DNA from: Flavobacteriales bacterium
GTDB taxonomy: Bacteria > Bacteroidota > Bacteroidia > Flavobacteriales_F > PHOS-HE28
Direction: 5' to 3'
Length of the DNA stretch: 64,000 nt
Assembly (NCBI GenBank): GCA_026129465.1
Contig: JAHCIA010000001.1
Location: forward strand, 1,683,964 to 1,747,963
Shown piece by piece: positions 11,808-27,363 of this stretch. Within the stretch, counting starts at the first letter, position 1. Every line of letters begins with the position of its first letter. The notes beneath the pieces are model-generated. The model saw nothing but the letters and a program-made list of their open reading frames with translations. It searched no databases and was not told the origin of the DNA. A program made the position numbers and the translations under genes.

Positions 11808-14800
11808 TCAGCGTAAGAGGGTGACATCGCCTTTCAGGATGGTCTCACGGCCATCGCTGAAGCGCGCGAAGCATTTCCAGACATAGACATCCTGCTTGGC
11901 GGGCTGGCCGCGGTACCAGCCGTCCCATCCCTTGCGGACATCCTGGGAGACGAAGAGCAGCTCGCCCCAGCGGTTGAAGATCTCCAGGCGATAGGCCTCC
12001 ACGCCCTCGTACACCGGGAAGAACACATCGTTGTCATAGGCGTTGGCGTCGTAGCTGCCATCGCCCGGTCCCGAACCGTTGGGCGTGAAGGCGTTCGGGA
12101 ACTGGATATCGCCCGAAACGCGCGTGGTGACGGCACTCTCCAGCAGGAAGGTGTCCGGGCAGTTCCATTGGTTGTTGGCGATGAGCATCACGTCGAACTG
12201 GCCCGCCTGCTGGTAGTAGTGGATCGGATTGAAGGTGGTGTAGGTGGTCCCGTCGCCGAAGTCCCAGAACCAACTGGTGGCATTGCCGGAGAGGTTGTAC
12301 GTGAACACCGGCTGACTGGGTACCACCACCTCGGTGGGCTGCAGCACGAAGTAGGCGATGGCGCGCGGGTGCACCACCACACTGTCCACCTTGGAGATGG
12401 TGTGTACACCGCCCTCGAAGCCGAAGGCCGTGAGCGTGACCGTGTAGGTACCGGGCGTATTGTAGGTGTAGGTCGGGCTCTCCGCGACGCTCGTACCGCC
12501 ATCGCCGAAGTTCCACTGGTAGGTGAAGCCACCAAAGGAGGTGTTCGTGAAAGCCACTGTGAGCGGCACACAGCCCTCACCCGATCCGATGAAGCTGGCG
12601 TTGGGCAGCGGAGGCAGGATCTCCACCACCTGCGTCACCGTATCGCTGCAATAAGCGCCGCTCACCACCAGGGTGATCGTGTACTGTCCCCAGCTTCCAT
12701 AGGTGTGCGAGCCTGGGTTCTGCCCCGTGGAGGTGTTGCCATCGCCGAGATCCCAGGCATAGGTCCAGGGCCCGTTGTTGCTGTTGTTGTTGATGTTCAC
12801 CGTGGCGTCAGGGAACTGCTGGATGAAGGGCGTGGCCTGGAACGCGGCGAAGGGCGTGGGATGCACATGCACATCCTGCGTCATGACACTGGCACAGCCA
12901 TAGGGGGAAGTGGCGGTAAGCGTGATGGTGTACACCTGTGGCGCCAGAGTGGTGTTCACGTAGGTGAAGACCGGCTCCTCCGTGACGAAGACGGTGCCTT
13001 CGCCCATGCTCCACATGTAGCTGTTGGCGCCCGTGCTGTTGTTGGCGATCTGCACGGTCAGGGGGGAACAACCCACCGTGTCCATGGTGAAGGCGGCCAC
13101 GACCGGCGGATAGACCTCGATGCTGCTCTGCGTGGTGTCCGTGCACCCGTGGATGGAGGTGGCGACCAGCACCGGGTCGTAGGTCACCGGCTCGTTGCTC
13201 GTGTTGGAGTAAATGTGTGTGACATTGCCCGGCGCGGTGGTCTGCGATTGGCCATCACCGAAGTTCCAAAGCATTTGCGCCGCGCCGATCGAAAGGTCCT
13301 GAAAGTCCACCGTCAACGGCGTGCAACCCGCCTGCGCGGACGGAATGAACTGTGCAAGGGGTTGCGGCCAGGTGTGTATCACGGCCGCGGTGGTATCGCT
13401 GCAACCGAAGGAGGATGTGGCGACCAGGGTGGCGGTGAAGGAGACTTCGTTCAGACCCTGGTTCTGATAGACATGCGTGGGTGAGGTCTCCGCACTGAAC
13501 TGGCCGTCGCCGAAATACCACTGGTAGGCCGTGGCACCGCTGCTGACATTGATGAAGGGCACGGTGAGCGGTGCGCAACCCGTATCGGGTGCCACGAATG
13601 CCGCAGTGACGGCAGGATGCACCTGCACCTGGGCGGTGGCCGTGCTCGTGCAGCCCTGTGTGGTGGTGGCGGTGAGCGTGATCGGATAGGTCACCGTGCC
13701 GGGGCCGGCGAAATTGTTCCAAGTGTGGCTGTGGATCGCGCTGTCCACGGTGGAGTTGAGTCCATCACCATAGCTCCAACTGAACATGTCCGCACCGGTG
13801 GATCCGTTGATCAGCTGCGTGGTGAAGGCATGGCAACCGACCGGCTCGGCCACGGTGAATTGCGCGGTGGGGTTCGGGAACACCACGATCTGTGTGGTGG
13901 CCGTGTCCGTGCAACCGAAGGCGTTGGCGCCCACCATGGTCACCACATAGACCATGTTGTTGGTGGTGCTGTTGAAGAAGGTGTGCGTGGGGCTGGGACC
14001 GCTGCCCGAGGCGCCATCTCCGAAGTCCCATTGGTAGGTCACCGCGCCCACCACCGAGGGAAAGGTCACCGTGAGGGGGCTGCACCCGCTGTCTGGCGTG
14101 GCCACGAAGGTGAAGTCCGGTGTGGGATAGACCATGATGTTCATGGTCGCCGTGTCGCTGCATCCCGCCGGCGATGTGGCCACCAGGGTCACCGTGTGGA
14201 TGTCGAGGAAATAGGTGTCGTTCACATAGGTGTGCTGGGGCGACACGGCCGTACTGGTGTTGCCGTCACCAAAGTCCCAGAAAAAGCTGCTCGCACCCGT
14301 GCTGTTGTTGGTGAAGGTCACCGCCATGGGCGCGCAGCCCGGCTGGCCGTTGTGGGTGAAGAGCGCATTGACCATCGGCGCCACGGTGATGTCCACGCTG
14401 GTGGTGTCGTTGCAGCCGAACGCGGTGGCGACCACGAGCTGCACGGTGAAGGTGGTGTCCGCCGAACCCGTGTTGAGGTAGGTGTAGGACGCGTCCCAGG
14501 TGCTGGTGCCCGCGCCGTTGCCGAAGGCCCAGACCGCCTGTGAAGCGCCGGTGCTGTTGTTTGTGAAGGTCACCGTCATGGGCGAGCAGCCATAGGTCAC
14601 ATCCGGCGTGAAGGCGGCCACCGGTGGGGCTTGTACCTGTATCGGCAGGCTGCCCGTGCCGGAGCAATAGGCTGTGGTGGCCGTGAGCGTCACCGTGTAG
14701 TCGCCCGCGGTGCCATAAGTGTGCGTCGGTGCGGGTTGGTCGCTGTTGGTGCCATCACCCAGGTCCCATGCCCAGGCGACGATGGGGTTGCCGGGTTCGG

Positions 14801-16340
14801 TCAACGAGAGGTCCATGAACTGTGAGGGCGAGCCGAGACAGACGTTCTGCGCGCCAATGGTCACCTGCGGTGGTTGGAACACGTGCACCTGCTGCGCCGC
14901 CGTGGCGGTACAGCCTTCCTCGTTGGTCACCGTCAGGGTGATGGTATAGGTGCCCGGACTCGTGTAGTCCTGCGGTGGCGGTTCCTCCAGGTCGCTGGTG
15001 TTGCCGTTGCCGAAATTCCACAGGAATGCGGTGCCGTTCACCGAAAGGTTGGTGAAGGCCACGGTGAGCTGGTCGCACGCCGCATCGTTGTCCACGGTGA
15101 ACGCTGCCGTGGGACTGGGCAGCACGGTGATGGTCACGCTCGCGGTATCCGCGCAGCCCGCCGTGGCGCCTTGGATGCTCGCGGCATAGGACGCTTCGTA
15201 CACGCCCGGCACTTGGTAGGTGAAGGCCTGGCCACCAGCGCCGGTGTTCTGCCAGCCCATGCCCGTACCGAAGTTCCATTGGAAGTGGTTCGCCCCTCCA
15301 TTCGTGATGGGCGTGAAGTAGACCGTTCCACCCGCGCAGATGGTCGTGGGGTTCGCCGTGAGCGACACGGTGGGCGGCGGCACGATGGTGATCTGGATGA
15401 AGGCCGTGTCGATGCCACAATAGTTGCTGTCCAACAGCATCACCTCATAGGTGCCGATGCCCGGGTAGGCGATCGTGTAGGGGAAGGTTGGTGGCCAGGG
15501 CGTCCAGTCGATGATGGAATCCTGCCCCAAGCCCCAGTAGTCGCCGAAATTCCAGTACTCGAAGCGCTGGAAGATATTGCCCTGCTGGAAACAGTTGCGG
15601 TAGGTGGTGTTCAGGTAGGTGACCTCATTGTCCGGCCAGCAAAGCAGCGTGGCACTGGGGGTGATCGCCGCATCGTCGATGTCCCAGATGCGGATGGGAT
15701 TGAAGGTGGCCACACTGGCGCCGCCCTGCAGCATGTTGCAGGTGTTCTGCGCGGTGAGCGTCACAGTGGTCTCACAGTCCACCGTGCCCTGCTCGTACAT
15801 GTGGGTGATGGTCTGCAGCCAGTTGGTGTGGTCGAAGGTGAGTGGCGGTGAACCGTCGCCGAAGTCCCAGGTGAAGACCGTGTTGGGCGAAACGTTGGTG
15901 CTGCTGTTGATGAAGTCCACCGGATGCGGGGCGCACACCTGGGTGAGTCCGCCCACGGGGATCTGGATGGAGGCGCTGGTGCTCTGCTCCATGGTGAGCG
16001 TACCGGTTACGACGCAGCCGGTGGCGGTCTCCGTGAACGTGATGGTGTAGGTGGCCACGGCGGCGGGGTACACATGGCTCACCGACATGGGCGGCATCAG
16101 GGCCGCGCCATTGTGCAGGGGGCTGCCATCCCCCCAGTCGATGGTGTAGGCACCCACGGTCTGGGGCGTGGCGATGAGCAGGGTGAAATTGGTGCCGGAA
16201 CAGCTGTACCACTGGGGCGTGGGCGAAGGCACCCCGTAATAGTCGTAGAGCAGCGGGCATTGGGCCTGGGCACCACCCAGCAGGGCCACCACCGATAGGG
16301 TGGCCAGGGCCCTGCGCGTGTCCATCCAATGCTTTCCCAT
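11808..16340 (-). CDS. Giant PKD-repeat surface protein with T9SS type B (CHU_C) sorting domain
   Basis: 1510 residues; predicted cell-surface adhesin secreted by the type IX system. Starts at 16340 (MGKHWMDTRRALATLSVV...) and 16325 (MDTRRALATL) both give a signal peptide ending near GGAQAQ. The body holds about sixteen PKD-like beta domains of roughly 85 residues, most with the pattern GC-x-PLTV-x-F-x-N-x-S then W-x-FGDG (for example GCSPLTVTF, WDFGDGNTSTAVSP) and a closing GC-x-DT. The C-terminal ~90 residues are the gliding-motility-associated domain: FPNAFTPNGSGPGDG, RLEIFNRWGELLF, GWDGWYRGQP, VYVWKC, ending KGDVTLLR. First gene of a unit with the PD40 and PorP/SprF genes. The paired Cys at domain edges may form disulfides. 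Ligand unknown. Confidence 0.92.
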   Translation of the reverse strand: MGKHWMDTRRALATLSVVALLGGAQAQCPLLYDYYGVPSPTPQWYSCSGTNFTLLIATPQTVGAYTIDWGDGSPLHNGAALMPPMSVSHVYPAAVATYTITFTETATGCVVTGTLTMEQSTSASIQIPVGGLTQVCAPHPVDFINSSTNVSPNTVFTWDFGDGSPPLTFDHTNWLQTITHMYEQGTVDCETTVTLTAQNTCNMLQGGASVATFNPIRIWDIDDAAITPSATLLCWPDNEVTYLNTTYRNCFQQGNIFQRFEYWNFGDYWGLGQDSIIDWTPWPPTFPYTIAYPGIGTYEVMLLDSNYCGIDTAFIQITIVPPPTVSLTANPTTICAGGTVYFTPITNGGANHFQWNFGTGMGWQNTGAGGQAFTYQVPGVYEASYAASIQGATAGCADTASVTITVLPSPTAAFTVDNDAACDQLTVAFTNLSVNGTAFLWNFGNGNTSDLEEPPPQDYTSPGTYTITLTVTNEEGCTATAAQQVHVFQPPQVTIGAQNVCLGSPSQFMDLSLTEPGNPIVAWAWDLGDGTNSDQPAPTHTYGTAGDYTVTLTATTAYCSGTGSLPIQVQAPPVAAFTPDVTYGCSPMTVTFTNNSTGASQAVWAFGNGAGTSTWDASYTYLNTGSADTTFTVQLVVATAFGCNDTTSVDITVAPMVNALFTHNGQPGCAPMAVTFTNNSTGASSFFWDFGDGNTSTAVSPQHTYVNDTYFLDIHTVTLVATSPAGCSDTATMNIMVYPTPDFTFVATPDSGCSPLTVTFPSVVGAVTYQWDFGDGASGSGPSPTHTFFNSTTNNMVYVVTMVGANAFGCTDTATTQIVVFPNPTAQFTVAEPVGCHAFTTQLINGSTGADMFSWSYGDGLNSTVDSAIHSHTWNNFAGPGTVTYPITLTATTTQGCTSTATAQVQVHPAVTAAFVAPDTGCAPLTVPFINVSSGATAYQWYFGDGQFSAETSPTHVYQNQGLNEVSFTATLVATSSFGCSDTTAAVIHTWPQPLAQFIPSAQAGCTPLTVDFQDLSIGAAQMLWNFGDGQSQTTAPGNVTHIYSNTSNEPVTYDPVLVATSIHGCTDTTQSSIEVYPPVVAAFTMDTVGCSPLTVQIANNSTGANSYMWSMGEGTVFVTEEPVFTYVNTTLAPQVYTITLTATSPYGCASVMTQDVHVHPTPFAAFQATPFIQQFPDATVNINNNSNNGPWTYAWDLGDGNTSTGQNPGSHTYGSWGQYTITLVVSGAYCSDTVTQVVEILPPLPNASFIGSGEGCVPLTVAFTNTSFGGFTYQWNFGDGGTSVAESPTYTYNTPGTYTVTLTAFGFEGGVHTISKVDSVVVHPRAIAYFVLQPTEVVVPSQPVFTYNLSGNATSWFWDFGDGTTYTTFNPIHYYQQAGQFDVMLIANNQWNCPDTFLLESAVTTRVSGDIQFPNAFTPNGSGPGDGSYDANAYDNDVFFPVYEGVEAYRLEIFNRWGELLFVSQDVRKGWDGWYRGQPAKQDVYVWKCFARFSDGRETILKGDVTLLR

Positions 16341-16524
16341 CACGCGACCTGCTACGACCCGCCACAGGCAAAGGATACCGGGTGCCCTCACGATCCGACC
16401 AAAGCACCCGATCGGCCTGACCGATCACCAGCGGACACCGATGACCACCCTCGGGAACCCACGTCCTGCGATCGCGTATGAACCGGCTCGACGCGCACCC
16501 GATCGCGCAGCACAGCACCCCGGC

Positions 16525-18024: not shown

Positions 18025-19149
18025 CTACGGTGGCCCCGGATCGCTGAAGCGATCGTCCGTCAAGAAATCCTGGTCCGTGAGCGTGTGCAGGAAGGCGATC
18101 AACTGGGCTTTTTTCTCAGGCGTGAGGGACAACCCGCCCTGTGTGTACTTCATGTTCGGGTCAATGGTGGTGCTGGGGTGGCCACCGCTGTTGTAGTGGT
18201 CGATCACCTGCTGCAGCGTCTCAAAGCGTCCATCGTGCATGTAAGGTGCCGTCAAGGCCACATTGCGCAGGCTGGGGGTCTTGAACTTGCCATTGTCCTG
18301 CGGCAGACCGGTGACACCACCGAGCCCCAGATCCGCCCAAGCGCCTTCGGGATCCAGGCCGTTGTTGCGCAGGATGCCATCGGTGAAGCGTCCACCGCCA
18401 TGCGGGTGGCAATGGAAACAATCCGCGCCCCACTGCCCACCCAACCCCAGGGCCGGATCACCGCCCTCCAGAAGCGTGAGCTGGAAACCGAGCTGCTCCT
18501 CGATGGTGAGCAACTCCTCGCCGCGCATGAATCGGTCGAACTTGGAGTTGCCGCTGATCATGGTGCGCAGGAACTGGGCGATGGCCTTGCTCACCAGCAC
18601 CGAGTCGATGGTGGTGGTGCCGAAGGCTTTGCTGAAAAGGTCCCGGTAGGCGGCATCGTCCTGCAACTTGGCCACGGTGGCGGGCCAGCTCTGGTGCATC
18701 TCGATCGGATCGGGCACCGGGAAGAAGATCTGCTGCTCCAAGGTGAGCGCACGGCCATCCCAGAAGAAGCGGTTCTCCCAGCCCAGATTCTGCAGGGCCA
18801 TGCTGTTGCGTGTGCCCTGCAGGCCCTGTATGCCAGTGCTGAAGCGATCGCTGTCCGTAAAGGCGATGGACTGCGCATGGCAGCTGGCACAACTCATGGT
18901 GTTGTCGCCGGAGAGGCGGTTCTCATGGAACAGGTGCCGCCCCAGCTTCACGCCCTCCACCGTCAACGGATTGTCCGGCGGGATGGGCATGGGCGGGAAG
19001 TTCGCCGGTATCTGCAGCGTATACGGCGTGGGCTGGTGTCCGCCCGGTCCCGGGGGGGCGGGATCGTCCGGATCGGGTCGGCGGCAGGACGTTTGGGCCA
19101 GCACCAGGATTCCCAGGCCAAGCAGGGCGATGTTCCGCAGCTTCATCAT
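18025..19149 (-). CDS. Di-haem cytochrome c peroxidase (MauG/MbnH-like) lipoprotein
   Basis: 374 residues with an N-terminal lipoprotein-like signal (MMKLRNIALLGLGILVLAQTSC, cleavage at TSC). Two c-type haem motifs are visible: Cys87-Ala-Ser-Cys90-His91 and Cys244-Phe-His-Cys247-His248, with the segments GTRNSMALQNLGWENRFFWDGRA and FKTPSLRNVALTAPYMHDGR that are diagnostic of the CCP/MauG family. The enzymes act in the periplasm, either on peroxide or to oxidise a protein partner. The linker after the lipid Cys is Pro-rich (DPDDPAPPGPGG). Its start overlaps the stop of the upstream paralogue by 4 nt, and the MbnP-like gene begins the unit, so the likely substrate is that protein. Confidence 0.9.
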   Translation of the reverse strand: MMKLRNIALLGLGILVLAQTSCRRPDPDDPAPPGPGGHQPTPYTLQIPANFPPMPIPPDNPLTVEGVKLGRHLFHENRLSGDNTMSCASCHAQSIAFTDSDRFSTGIQGLQGTRNSMALQNLGWENRFFWDGRALTLEQQIFFPVPDPIEMHQSWPATVAKLQDDAAYRDLFSKAFGTTTIDSVLVSKAIAQFLRTMISGNSKFDRFMRGEELLTIEEQLGFQLTLLEGGDPALGLGGQWGADCFHCHPHGGGRFTDGILRNNGLDPEGAWADLGLGGVTGLPQDNGKFKTPSLRNVALTAPYMHDGRFETLQQVIDHYNSGGHPSTTIDPNMKYTQGGLSLTPEKKAQLIAFLHTLTDQDFLTDDRFSDPGPP

Positions 19150-20156
19150 GGTACCTGGTCGATATCGCGTTCGTCGGTCAAGGCGTGCAGGAAGTTGATC
19201 AGGTCGGTCCTGTCCTTCGCGGTCAGGTTGAGACTGTGCATGAGATGGCTCAGATTCGGGTGGGCCTCGCCGCCTGAAACATAGTGGCTGATGACCTCAT
19301 TCAACGTGGCCATGGATCCGTCGTGCATGTAAGGTGCGGTCAGGGCCACGTTGCGCAGCGAAGGGGTCTTGAACTTCCCCTCATCGGCGGCATCCAGCGT
19401 GATGCGCGCACGGCCGGGATCGGCGTAGACCTGGTACAGGCCGATGTTATGGAAGTCATGGTCGCTGAGGTCGAAGTCCGAATGGCATTCACGGCAGCCG
19501 GTGGAGGGGCTGTTGAAGAGCAGCCAACCGCGCGCCTCCGAAGGCGTAAGTGCTTCTGACTCGCCTTGCATGTAACGGTCCCAGCGAGACCAGCCACTGA
19601 TCAGCGTCCTCTGGTAGTTGGCCAGTGCCCGGGTGATCACCCAGCCATTCATCGGCTTGCCATAGGCCACCTGGCTCAGCCTGGCATAGGGCTCCACATC
19701 GCGCAGCAGGGCCGCGGCCGCATGGATGTCGTGGTCCATCTCCTTCGGGTCATGGATCGGTGCTATGGCCTGCTGCTCCAGGGTGGGCACGCCGCCATCG
19801 CGGAAGAAGCTCGAGTGATAGCCCACATTGGCCAGGCCTGGAGAGTTGCGCTCACCCAGGCGCCCTTCGATGCCCGTGCTCACCGCCGTCACATCGCTGA
19901 AGGCCTTCTCTGGCAAGTGGCAACTCGCGCAACTGATGGTGCCATCGCGCGACAAGCGGGGATCGAAGAAGAGCGCCTTGCCCAGCTGCACGGAGGCCGT
20001 CGTCAGCGGATTGTCCGGGGGCGTTCCAGGCCACGGAAAGCCCACCGGCAACTGGAGCGCGAAAGGCGTGTCGCCATCCTGCGGCATGGTATCCAGGTCG
20101 CGGCGGCAGGACACCAACAGCAGTGCGAGCAAGGCGATGTACGCGGACGTCCTCAT
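19146..20156 (-). CDS. Di-haem cytochrome c peroxidase (MauG/MbnH-like) lipoprotein, second copy
   Basis: 336 residues. Start at 20156 gives a lipoprotein signal (MRTSAYIALLALLLVSC). Haem-binding motifs are Cys76-Ala-Ser-Cys79-His80 and Cys221-Arg-Glu-Cys224-His225; the family segments GERNSPGLANVGYHSSFFRDGG and FKTPSLRNVALTAPYMHDGS are intact. It is a clear paralogue of the next gene (shared SCASCH, KTPSLRNVALTAPYMHDG and LINFLHALTD/LIAFLHTLTD segments) but about 40 residues shorter. It overlaps the MbnP-like gene by 4 nt (ATGA) at one end and the second peroxidase by 4 nt at the other, so all three are translated from one message. Role as an MbnH-type protein oxidase is inferred from context. 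Confidence 0.9.
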   Translation of the reverse strand: MRTSAYIALLALLLVSCRRDLDTMPQDGDTPFALQLPVGFPWPGTPPDNPLTTASVQLGKALFFDPRLSRDGTISCASCHLPEKAFSDVTAVSTGIEGRLGERNSPGLANVGYHSSFFRDGGVPTLEQQAIAPIHDPKEMDHDIHAAAALLRDVEPYARLSQVAYGKPMNGWVITRALANYQRTLISGWSRWDRYMQGESEALTPSEARGWLLFNSPSTGCRECHSDFDLSDHDFHNIGLYQVYADPGRARITLDAADEGKFKTPSLRNVALTAPYMHDGSMATLNEVISHYVSGGEAHPNLSHLMHSLNLTAKDRTDLINFLHALTDERDIDQVP

Positions 20157-20938
20157 TCCACCGAAAAGCTGGCCACCACGTTGTTCACCAGTTTCCATTG
20201 CAGCGGCAGGTTGTTGCCGTGCGCGCTGTTCTCTGTGGCCAGATCGATGCTGTACTGGTCCGTGTGGAGGAATCCTTCGACCGCCACGCCCACCACCAAT
20301 TCTGTCACCTGCCCGGGTTCCACCACGATCCCAGCACCAGGCTGCAACTCGAACTCGACGTAGCTGGGTTCCATGCCCGGGTGGATGGAATAGGAGGCGA
20401 TCAATGGTCCGGTGCCTTGTGGATCGGTGTCGTAGCGGCCCTCGAACATCACATAGCGATAGCCTGTGGCCCAGGTCCAGTAGGTGCCGTTGCTCACGCT
20501 CAGCGGGTGGCCCGGACCATAGTTGGCCGGATCGGCATAGTTCAACTCCTCCGGCACACCGAGGCCCGCCCGAAGTTTCGCCCAAGTGCCCGTTGCCACT
20601 GTCCACTCCAGGCTAACCGGCCCGTTGTCGAAAACGAAAAGGTCCACATCCTTCACCGCCAGGGTGTCGTCACCGGCGATCAGCCGCACATCGCCGAAGT
20701 ACATCTTCAGCAGTTCCACCGTCACGCGATAGTCATTGTGGTCGCGGTACTCGGTGAACCGCTGGAAGGGCTGCCCATCCCAGGTGGCTACGAGCGTGAT
20801 GCGCAACGTGCCTTGGTCCAAGACCGTGGTGTCAACGGGAGGTGCCACCGGTGGCATCGGTGGTACGGGCGGATCCACCCGACAACCGGCCAAAGCCAGG
20901 GCCACCCCGGCAGCGATGATGTATCGGCTGATGCGCAT
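20153..20938 (-). CDS. MbnP-like copper-associated lipoprotein
   Basis: 261 residues. The start at 20938 gives MRISRYIIAAGVALALAGC with lipobox LAGC; an upstream in-frame ATG at 20953 is possible. After a Pro-rich linker the mature domain begins with LRITLVATWDGQPF and contains KMYFGDVRLIAGDDT, DVDLFVFDNG, the Trp-rich core SNGTYWTWATGYRYVMFEGRY and a long C-terminal beta region (VEFELQPG, TELVVGVAVEGFL). This layout fits MbnP-type proteins, in which a Trp is converted to kynurenine by the di-haem partner MbnH and copper is bound. Two such di-haem genes follow in the same operon. A perfect -7 box lies upstream. Family call moderately firm, function inferred. Confidence 0.8.
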   Translation of the reverse strand: MRISRYIIAAGVALALAGCRVDPPVPPMPPVAPPVDTTVLDQGTLRITLVATWDGQPFQRFTEYRDHNDYRVTVELLKMYFGDVRLIAGDDTLAVKDVDLFVFDNGPVSLEWTVATGTWAKLRAGLGVPEELNYADPANYGPGHPLSVSNGTYWTWATGYRYVMFEGRYDTDPQGTGPLIASYSIHPGMEPSYVEFELQPGAGIVVEPGQVTELVVGVAVEGFLHTDQYSIDLATENSAHGNNLPLQWKLVNNVVASFSVE

Positions 20939-24670: not shown

Positions 24671-27283
24671 TCAGCGCAGCAGCGAGAAGTGCCCTTGGTA
24701 CTCCTTGCTATATGCGCCCCATTCCTTGATGCGCGCCGTGTAGACATACACGCCCTGCGGATGGTCGGCGCCATTCCAGCCCTGCTTCGGATCGTCGGTG
24801 CTGAACACCAGCCGGCCCCAGCGGTCGTGGATCATCAACTCGTAGAAACGCGCACCGATCACCGTGGGCAGCCACACCTCGTTCACCTCGTCGTCATCGG
24901 GCGTGAAGGCGTTCGGCGCCCAGAAGATATGGTCCGAGACATAGACCATGCGCAGGGTGCTGTCCGGACAGCCGTTGGGCGAGACCACATACTGCCAGAT
25001 CTCGTACTGCCCGCCATCGGAAAAGAAATGTGTGAAGGTGGGCGAGTTGTACGTCTGTCCATCCACCGTGTAGTACCAACTCACCGCATCGTAGGCGAAG
25101 TCCTCTATTGACACCACGGGATCGAATACGCTCACCTCATTGGGCAGGGCGGTGAAGGCCGCGATGGGGTTCGGATAGACCACCACCTGGTCCGGCCGGA
25201 TGCGCGTATCGCTGGCGATGCAGCCCATGGTCGTATTCACGGTGAGCGTCACCGTGTAGCTGCCCGGCGCCTGGTATTGGTGCACCGGATCGCTCGCCGT
25301 GGAAGTATTCCCGTCGCCAAAGTCCCACAGGTACGCCATGGGCGTGAGGGCTTCACTGAGATCGGTGAAGGCGAACCAAGCCCCTACGCAGGCCTGGCTT
25401 TCGCTTGTGAAGTCGGCCACAGGGAAGGGATGTATCTCCACCGTTCCGGTATAGCTGCCCTCGCATCCGTTCGCTTCCACATCCACGGTCACCTCGTGCA
25501 CACCCACCTCCGCAAAGCTTGAACTGGCCGTGACCCCGGTGCCGGCGGCAGGCATGCCCGAGCCGAAGTTCCATACGAACTGGGTGCCCGCCCCGAAGTT
25601 GCCCTGCGCGGTGAAGACCACCGGCTGGCCCGGGCAGGCGATGGGCGGCTCCGCGAAGGAGATCGGGATGTCCGTGTAAACATCGAAGACCGCCGTGGTG
25701 CTGTTCGGGCAGGGTCCATTGGGATCGGCGGTGAGCGTTACCGTGTAGGTGCCGGTCTGCCCGTAGGTCCAATTGGGGTTCGTGGCGGTGGAGTTGTCAT
25801 TGGCGCTGCTGGGATCGCCGAAGTCCCAGAGGTAGCCGGATGCGCCCTGGCTCTCGTTGGTGAATTGCATCGTGAGTCCCGTACAGAAAGTGGTCTGTTC
25901 CCCGATCGCCGCCACAGGAATCGGAAACACCGAGACCTGGCCGGTGAAGCTCTCCGTGCAGCCGTTCTCGCTCACTGTCACCGTCACGTCCTGAGTTCCG
26001 ATCGGTTGGAAGGTGACGTCCACAATTGCGCCTTGCGCCATGGATGGCGTGGCCGTGGGGCCGAGGTTCCAGGTCACCGTTGCCGCACCGGTGAAATTGC
26101 CCGTGGCGGTGAGTTCGGTCATGGAGGCCCCACACAAGGCCTCCGGGGGCTCAAAGACCGGGTCGAGTGGCAGGAACACGCTGTACACCGAGGTGCTAGT
26201 ATCGGCGCACGGCCAGCCGGGGTTGGCGATGAGTGTGACGGTATAGCTGCCCGGTGCGGGATAGGTGTAGGTGGGTGTGGCCAGGTTCGAGGTGTCGGCC
26301 AGCGTGGTGGGATCGCCGAAGTCCCAGAAGAAGAACTGGCCGTTGACACTGTTGTTGCCGAAGGTCTGTGTAAGACCCAGGCAAGCCGCGCCCGATGGCT
26401 GCCCCGCCACCACGGAAACGATGTTGGCGTCGCATACCACCACCACGAACATGAAATCGCGGCGGCCTTCACTCAACAGCACGCCGTTGCGGTACTCCTT
26501 CACACAGACCCCCACGGCGTAGAAGCCGATCTGCGTGGGCGTCACCGTGAGGATGCCGTTGTCGGCGTTCACGGTCATGGCCGGGTTGGAATTGATCTGG
26601 TTGTTCACGTTGTAGCCGGCCGCCCAAGGCACGAAGGCGTAAGGAGGCGCTGCCGGAAACGGTGCCGGATCGAACTGGCTGCCGCCGTGGTACGGCGTGC
26701 ACAACTCGTACACCAGTTCATCGCCATCCGGATCGCTGGCACCGTGATCGAAGACCAGTTGCTCACCCACACACAGCACAATGGGCGGATAGTTGTCGAA
26801 ACGCGCGCTGCTGTTCTGGCTGTTGGGCGTACCGGGGATCTTCACCGTGCAGGTGAGGCCCTGCGCACCGGGGTTCACCAGGTTGAGGATGGCCGGCACC
26901 CGGCAGCAACGCTGGTAGGTGAGCGTGTAGCCCCCGGGTGTGGGGGGCAGGCTCACCACGGTGGAATAGGTGGTGGTGGCGATGCACAGATTGGGGGGCG
27001 CCTGGAGGCAGGGATTGCCCACCACGATGGGGATCTGGATCTCGCCGGGAAAAGGGATGCTCAACGTGGAATGCAGGCCTCCATTGGCATTGAAGATCCC
27101 GATGGTGACATTGGCATCGAAGCCGGTGATGCCCGGGCCGCAGTCGCGATACAGCTTCAGGTGGACCTGGTAGTTGTTGTTGCCCAGGTGGTCGTAGTAG
27201 ATCTCCCCGCCGATGATGTGGGCACCCTGCAGGCCAGTGACACAGGCCGCGGTCAGCAGGAGGGTGAGGAGACGGCTGCCCAT
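24671..27283 (-). CDS. PKD-domain surface protein with CHU_C (T9SS type B) sorting domain
   Basis: 870 residues. Start at 27283 (MGSRLLTLLLTAACVTGLQG) gives a signal peptide. The mature N-terminus AHIIGGEIYYDHLGNNNYQV opens a conserved ~300-residue domain (LYRDCGPGITGFDANVTIGIF, TYQRCCRVPAILNLVNPGAQG, LVFDHGASDPDGDELVYELCTPYHGGS) shared with the next gene. Four or five PKD-like units follow (FFWDFGDPTTLADTSN, YLWDFGDPSS, YLWDFGDGNTSTASDP). The C-terminal sorting domain reads FWAPNAFTPDDDEVNEVW, FYELMIHDRWGRLVFST, GWNGADHPQGVYVYTARI and ends GHFSLLR. Likely a cell-surface or secreted adhesin exported by T9SS. It shares a nearly identical 56-nt block with its tandem neighbour. A -7-like box lies 15 nt upstream. 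Confidence 0.9.
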   Translation of the reverse strand: MGSRLLTLLLTAACVTGLQGAHIIGGEIYYDHLGNNNYQVHLKLYRDCGPGITGFDANVTIGIFNANGGLHSTLSIPFPGEIQIPIVVGNPCLQAPPNLCIATTTYSTVVSLPPTPGGYTLTYQRCCRVPAILNLVNPGAQGLTCTVKIPGTPNSQNSSARFDNYPPIVLCVGEQLVFDHGASDPDGDELVYELCTPYHGGSQFDPAPFPAAPPYAFVPWAAGYNVNNQINSNPAMTVNADNGILTVTPTQIGFYAVGVCVKEYRNGVLLSEGRRDFMFVVVVCDANIVSVVAGQPSGAACLGLTQTFGNNSVNGQFFFWDFGDPTTLADTSNLATPTYTYPAPGSYTVTLIANPGWPCADTSTSVYSVFLPLDPVFEPPEALCGASMTELTATGNFTGAATVTWNLGPTATPSMAQGAIVDVTFQPIGTQDVTVTVSENGCTESFTGQVSVFPIPVAAIGEQTTFCTGLTMQFTNESQGASGYLWDFGDPSSANDNSTATNPNWTYGQTGTYTVTLTADPNGPCPNSTTAVFDVYTDIPISFAEPPIACPGQPVVFTAQGNFGAGTQFVWNFGSGMPAAGTGVTASSSFAEVGVHEVTVDVEANGCEGSYTGTVEIHPFPVADFTSESQACVGAWFAFTDLSEALTPMAYLWDFGDGNTSTASDPVHQYQAPGSYTVTLTVNTTMGCIASDTRIRPDQVVVYPNPIAAFTALPNEVSVFDPVVSIEDFAYDAVSWYYTVDGQTYNSPTFTHFFSDGGQYEIWQYVVSPNGCPDSTLRMVYVSDHIFWAPNAFTPDDDEVNEVWLPTVIGARFYELMIHDRWGRLVFSTDDPKQGWNGADHPQGVYVYTARIKEWGAYSKEYQGHFSLLR
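27165..27220. repeat. Direct repeat copy A within PKD paralogue (55 of 56 nt identical to 29114-29169)
   Basis: Compared by eye, this segment (coding for GGEIYYDHLGNNNYQV in the minus frame) differs from 29114-29169 by one base. Neighbouring codons differ freely, so the block stands out as conserved at nucleotide level. Confidence 0.85.
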
Positions 27284-27298
27284 GACAGGTTCACGACC

Positions 27299-27306
27299 TG
27301 AAGATA
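27299..27306 (-). promoter_or_regulatory. Putative -7 box of the first PKD paralogue
   Basis: TATCTTCA on the minus strand, 15 nt upstream of the start at 27283; two changes from TAnnTTTG at the 3' end. Confidence 0.4.
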
Positions 27307-27363
27307 GGCCTTCCGGTTGCCCGGTGCTGTCCAAGGCCCGTTCCGTTCCGAACGATCCCCGGT

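Follow-up and report, generated by a model that had tools for sequence, protein, structure and literature searches.

An MbnP-family lipoprotein operon with two non-equivalent MbnH-like di-haem proteins in Flavobacteriales

Operon organization and family assignment

Why is a gene for a single MbnP-family lipoprotein followed by genes for two different di-haem proteins? The question is raised by an operon found in a stretch of 64,000 nucleotides from a Flavobacteriales bacterium, referred to here as the window. The operon comprises three lipoprotein genes on the minus strand, from 20938 to 18025, in the order MbnP, di-haem A and di-haem B. The first gene (20153..20938, minus strand) encodes the MbnP-family lipoprotein, of 261 aa; the second (19146..20156, minus strand) encodes di-haem lipoprotein A, of 336 aa; and the third (18025..19149, minus strand) encodes di-haem lipoprotein B, of 374 aa. 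The MbnP/A and A/B junctions are both overlaps of exactly 4 nt, and each protein opens with a signal peptide and a lipobox-like Cys (LAGC in MbnP, LVSC in A and QTSC in B). Three overlapping lipoprotein genes, for an MbnP and two di-haem proteins, were also what a preliminary description of this DNA had reported, and the ORFs, the overlaps, the lipobox-like Cys and the family matches confirm it.

A divergent gene for a UvrD-type helicase/nuclease lies upstream, and a convergent gene for a flavin disulphide oxidoreductase lies downstream. Synteny showed that both flank the operon across the genus too; there are no copper genes in this neighbourhood, and the flanking genes give no functional hint. 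Elsewhere in the window, at 11808–16391 and 24671–27334, the minus strand encodes very long proteins in which FxWDFGDG-type (PKD-like) motifs are repeated many times and the C-terminal region is of the gliding type.

The MbnP protein matched PF20243 with an E-value of 9.2e-21 and 75 bits, against a Pfam gathering cut-off of 27, and the MbnP domain presumed in the preliminary description is therefore detected. Its AlphaFold2 model (pLDDT 92) aligned with 7l6g_D over 199 residues (VIA-align Z 16.5, rmsd 2.9), while the runner-up structure reached a Z of only 5.4. The score of the protein in TIGR04052 (MbnP_like_WxW), 36 bits, is under the NCBIfam cut-off of 140. A PDB sequence search also linked MbnP to virus glycoprotein G over 64 residues (E 2.5e-4); neither the profile search nor the fold search recovered these matches, which were discarded as chance.

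Both di-haem proteins matched CCP_MauG (1.2e-52 for A and 3.2e-57 for B) and carry two CxxCH motifs, at residues 76–80 and 221–225 in A and at residues 87–91 and 244–248 in B, which also has the Pro-rich linker PDPDDPAPPGPGG mentioned in the preliminary description. The best NCBIfam family was MbnH (TIGR04039) in both cases, with 268 bits for A (MauG, 233 bits) and 267 bits for B (MauG, 176 bits), and both proteins are below the MbnH cut-off of 363 bits. The model of A (pLDDT 77) was closest to MbnH 6e1c, with a Z of 27.8, 300 aligned residues and 41% identity; the top peroxidase structure followed with a Z of 24.5.

Bacterial cytochrome c peroxidases (1iqc, CcpA) have in common with A and B the fold, the two haems and the distal residues, and differ from them by a lower structural score than that of MbnH and by the axial residue. 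The axial Met of classical CcpA does not occur in any readable A or B protein of the genus, where Tyr or Phe is found instead. A classical peroxidase reading of A and B was thus rejected, since the axial Met is absent and the best family and fold are those of MbnH; nor are the two proteins related to CcpA only, in agreement with their first assignment. By Pfam, best match and fold, MbnP, A and B are MbnP-like and MbnH-like proteins that stand outside the narrow NCBIfam definitions. No match to the methanobactin synthase MbnB (PF05114) was found in the genome of the window, which is 99.7% complete, and the lack of methanobactin synthesis genes noted from the window is borne out as regards MbnB.

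Two lineages of di-haem protein

In MauG-type enzymes, an inter-haem Trp and an axial Tyr are held to allow the storage of two oxidising equivalents and the oxidation of a distant Trp. MauG of Paracoccus (3l4m) has the set Trp93, Gln103, Pro107, Glu113 and Tyr294, and its substrate is pre-methylamine dehydrogenase, whereas the partner gene here encodes MbnP. Protein B presents the full MauG/MbnH set: Trp130, whose codon was placed by alignment at 18760..18762 (minus strand), Gln140, Pro144 and Glu150, these four with exactly the spacing of MauG, and the axial Tyr319, which corresponds to MauG Tyr294. Among the B proteins of the genus, the Trp was found in 29 of 29, the Tyr in 26 of 26 readable ones, and the Gln, Pro and Glu in all 29.

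In protein A, residues 119, 129, 133 and 139 reproduce the spacing of MauG Trp93-Gln103-Pro107-Glu113. Gln129, Pro133 and Glu139 are kept, and residue 119, at the position of the inter-haem Trp, is Arg; its codon, located by alignment and by the spacing to the other three residues, is at 19800..19802 (minus strand). The Trp is gone in the A proteins of the whole genus (30/30), replaced by Arg in 27 and by Lys, Met and Ser once each, while Gln, Pro and Glu are intact in 29 of the 30, the remaining one having Leu for Gln. The axial Tyr is changed to Phe in 26 of 29 readable A proteins; the A protein of the window is one of the three with Tyr (Tyr292, codon at 19281..19283, minus strand, by alignment to MauG Tyr294). 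The preliminary description had one MbnP served by two MbnH/MauG-like paralogues; the pair itself stands, and the paralogues are not equivalent, A being without the inter-haem Trp.

The complete triad was counted by hand in 26 of 35 genomes of the genus, that of the window included; in six a contig end interrupts it, and the other three are without it or unclear. An MbnP was found in 52 of 58 sampled genomes of this class of Bacteroidota, and a scan of named bacterial genomes added triads in Cryomorpha, Chitinophagales, Saprospiraceae and unclassified Flavobacteriales. The search for genomes of the same arrangement, suggested at the outset, thus revealed a triad widespread in the genus and in other Bacteroidota and not peculiar to this genome. 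The operon is not a chance association, since the same gene order is kept in most of the genus and in other Bacteroidota. A contig labelled Phycisphaerales (L128) also has an MbnP-A-B triad, which groups inside Bacteroidota and perhaps reflects a binning error. No match to A was returned from viral contigs.

Of the 49 distinct loci where MbnP is accompanied by two adjacent CCP genes, 48 have exactly one Trp-less copy, a count derived from 50 of 51 after the removal of two loci that repeated contigs already counted; in the sole exception (L183), both copies bear the Trp. In a tree of di-haem proteins built without the diagnostic Trp and Tyr columns, B formed a clade of 65 rows, all with the Trp (SH-aLRT 97), and A a clade of 54 rows, 51 of them Trp-less (SH-aLRT 89, below the star threshold); MbnH 6e1c falls outside both. 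Purifying selection on A is much like that on B, with dN/dS of about 0.2–0.33 and dS near saturation. These analyses showed that A and B are anciently different paralogues, separated by a deep split and both selectively maintained. The view of A as a decaying duplicate was rejected, since its dN/dS is near that of B and many genomes show an identical change of residue.

The two lineages are not always side by side. In several loci of Crocinitomicaceae and Saprospiraceae, A adjoins MbnP with no adjacent B, and a Trp-bearing paralogue was located elsewhere in 13 of the 13 genomes examined where A has no adjacent B. Some Bacteroidota have A and B at separate loci, each beside its own MbnP, which implies that one shared MbnP is not required.

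The WxW motif and a candidate copper site

The sequence YWTWATGYRY, pointed out early as a Trp-rich core, is present in MbnP and contains the WxW motif, formed by W154-T-W156 (20471..20479, minus strand). A profile alignment paired it with the WNW of 7l6g, and W154 with the Trp that is turned into kynurenine in Methylosinus trichosporium MbnP. The motif is nearly invariant in both MbnP alignments (A1 and A2). One MbnP of the genus has Leu for the first Trp (LSW; L073:3413-4336), next to A and B genes that are intact up to the end of the contig; with this change, the position could no longer be converted into kynurenine.

In A2, the alignment of triad MbnPs, two His are invariant: His186, in an HxG motif (20381..20383, minus strand), a candidate copper ligand, and His240 (20219..20221, minus strand), a candidate second ligand. 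The triad MbnPs keep them together with W154, W156 and the lipobox Cys, and the two conserved His could form a copper site, to judge from the alignment. M. trichosporium MbnP, the one family member of known structure, reportedly binds copper, in a site said to consist of His, Met, solvent and kynurenine. An HxG His is likewise found in that protein at the place of His186, and column 240, which is His in the triad MbnPs, is Met in a number of other MbnPs (e.g., NHIMSP).

His was found at column 240 in 77 of 80 MbnPs adjoining an A gene vs 29 of 61 adjoining B only; these are raw counts, and the 80 named loci came from retrieval with the A profile, the mix thus not being a random sample. The association between A and His240 loses its significance when independent pairs are used to correct for relatedness. 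A co-evolution of the two, suggested by the strong raw counts, is accordingly not claimed.

Six triads (L074, L083, L086, L088, L090 and L099) have an extra MbnP in front, giving the order MbnP, MbnP, A, B, and in two of them, L088 and L090 (G024 and G026), the extra MbnP has Glu at the position of His186. The genome of the window encodes two further MbnP-family proteins. One is an orphan with 104 bits and a WxW (L104:3612-4886, C1 about 3387.1–3388.4 kb), with no di-haem gene nearby, whose gene adjoins those for aconitase and ribosomal protein L9. The other is an MbnP-like protein of about 25 bits, below the cut-off, that has lost the WxW and is encoded beside a type IX secretion sorting domain protein (L105:4354-5340).

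Proposed roles of the two di-haem proteins

We propose, as the most likely reading and at slightly less than even confidence, that the operon encodes a membrane-anchored copper-site protein, MbnP, and its finishing enzymes, B forming the kynurenine and A performing a different, short-range step. The role of A, the kynurenine and the copper we infer. In the first step, B would take H2O2 at its five-coordinate haem, by analogy with MbnH, hold two oxidising equivalents over both haems by means of Trp130 and the His/Tyr haem, and oxidise W154 of the MbnP WxW to kynurenine. In the second, kynurenine-154, His186 and His240 would constitute a Cu(I) site, with ligands nearer to those of MopE and CorA (two His and kynurenine) than to those of M. 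trichosporium MbnP (His, Met and kynurenine). The third step is the least certain: A, an old and separately conserved paralogue that retains the peroxide-activating haem and has lost the Trp relay, would oxidise MbnP, or the product of B, at short range and in a different way, without duplicating the reaction of B.

The presence of a Trp-bearing B and a Trp-less A across Bacteroidota suggests distinct tasks for the two on a single target, as far as can be judged from the residues. A division of labour is favoured over scavenging, scaffold and redundancy, because A keeps the peroxide haem without the relay and is under purifying selection like B. A relay through A, one of the possibilities raised in the preliminary description, looks less likely, A being the copy that lost the relay residues. 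Weighing against the proposal as a whole are the scores under the MbnH and WxW MbnP cut-offs of NCBIfam, a neighbourhood that does not point to copper, and the Bacteroidota in which A and B are at separate loci with an MbnP each.

The loss of the Trp alone is no proof of a different chemistry, since BthA of Burkholderia thailandensis (6nx0), a MauG-type di-haem enzyme that, like A, has no inter-haem Trp (Ser257), still forms bis-Fe(IV) (PMC6405878). By this comparison, the A protein of the window, with Arg and Tyr, could still make bis-Fe(IV), and in its Arg/Phe relatives this state is probably out of reach by the known route, as the BthA variant Y463H lost bis-Fe(IV) and kept H2O2 reduction (PMC6405878). 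A also differs from BthA in that it keeps, as Asn104, Thr273 and Pro275, the Ca2+ residues of MauG (Asn66, Thr275 and Pro277; PMC6405878), which BthA has lost. Furthermore, the A proteins mostly have Arg and not Ser, are often Tyr-less too, and have a Trp-bearing paralogue and an MbnP as partners.

The Y463H variant is comparable to the A proteins with Phe for Tyr, and A could therefore protect MbnP and B as a peroxide scavenger or an electron-accepting peroxidase, with B alone modifying MbnP. This role, with which the retention of the distal Gln, Pro and Glu and of both haems in A also agrees, is rather unlikely: the peroxidases of this fold have an axial Met (PMC6405878), which no A protein has, and A stays beside MbnP, at times without an adjoining B, as a general scavenger need not. 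It is unlikely, too, that A is a non-catalytic or weakly catalytic pseudo-enzyme subunit, binding MbnP and B and either shaping the complex or supplying electrons. Such a subunit would fit the A proteins of the genus, all of which have lost the Trp and most the Tyr, as well as the 4-nt overlaps of the A gene with the genes on both sides and the Trp-bearing paralogue in every genome checked. Against it stand the peroxide-activating residues, retained in full along with both CxxCH motifs, and the lineages where A is beside MbnP without an adjacent B.

A further reading concerns the target: the modified MbnP may not be a copper protein, and the kynurenine or another oxidised residue would then serve a surface redox or binding role. 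It draws on the lack of copper genes adjoining the operon and on the MbnP-like protein without WxW in the same genome, and we consider it quite improbable, given that the invariant His186 and His240 of the aligned triad MbnPs fit a metal site and that the only member of known structure is said to bind copper. Plain redundancy, two MbnH copies with the same job, is very improbable in view of the two deep, separately conserved clades, whose residue states are opposite in 48 of the 49 triads, even though A and B score alike on the MbnH family, the A of the window has the Tyr, and BthA reaches bis-Fe(IV) without the Trp (PMC6405878).

The nearest known counterpart of the operon is the MbnP/MbnH pair of M. 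trichosporium (7l6g and 6e1c; PF20243, TIGR04039 and TIGR04052), which shares the MbnP fold, the WxW, an MbnH-like partner and adjacent genes. The operon departs from that pair in several ways: there are two di-haem partners, of which A lacks the inter-haem Trp; column 240 of MbnP is His and not the Met of a number of other MbnPs; the genome has no MbnB; and the scores fall short of the NCBIfam cut-offs. CorA/CorB of Methylomicrobium album and MopE/SACCP of Methylococcus have a kynurenine-dependent Cu(I) site with two His, a co-transcribed di-haem partner and surface association (PMC3912023); their di-haem partner is single, vs two here, where the two-His site is one that we infer. MbnP is reported to lack marked sequence similarity to MopE and CorA (PMC3621798). 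A copper role would be one that the operon inherits from its family.

The MbnP/MbnH kind is thus known, and the variant with two non-equivalent di-haem partners is new, although a doubled MbnH in Bacteroidota may have been reported earlier. In its most specific form, the proposal is a finishing line of two enzymes, where B makes the kynurenine and A, with no Trp relay and often no axial Tyr, adds a second, different oxidation; we hold this form to be doubtful, and if true, the two-His copper site of the mature MbnP would be doubly modified, a kind of site without precedent so far. A long-kept natural pair, one copy with Trp and Tyr and one without one or both, together with one presumed substrate, offers a way to test what the relay does, and takes the MbnP chemistry of this class of Bacteroidota beyond a single enzyme. 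The surprise is limited by BthA, in which the Trp can be dispensed with. In the same genome, a second adjacent CCP_MauG pair (L103:3785-5990, C1 about 3622284–3624489), with no MbnP beside it, has the inter-haem Trp and the axial Tyr in both copies, and its neighbours encode a DPP-IV type peptidase and MurB.
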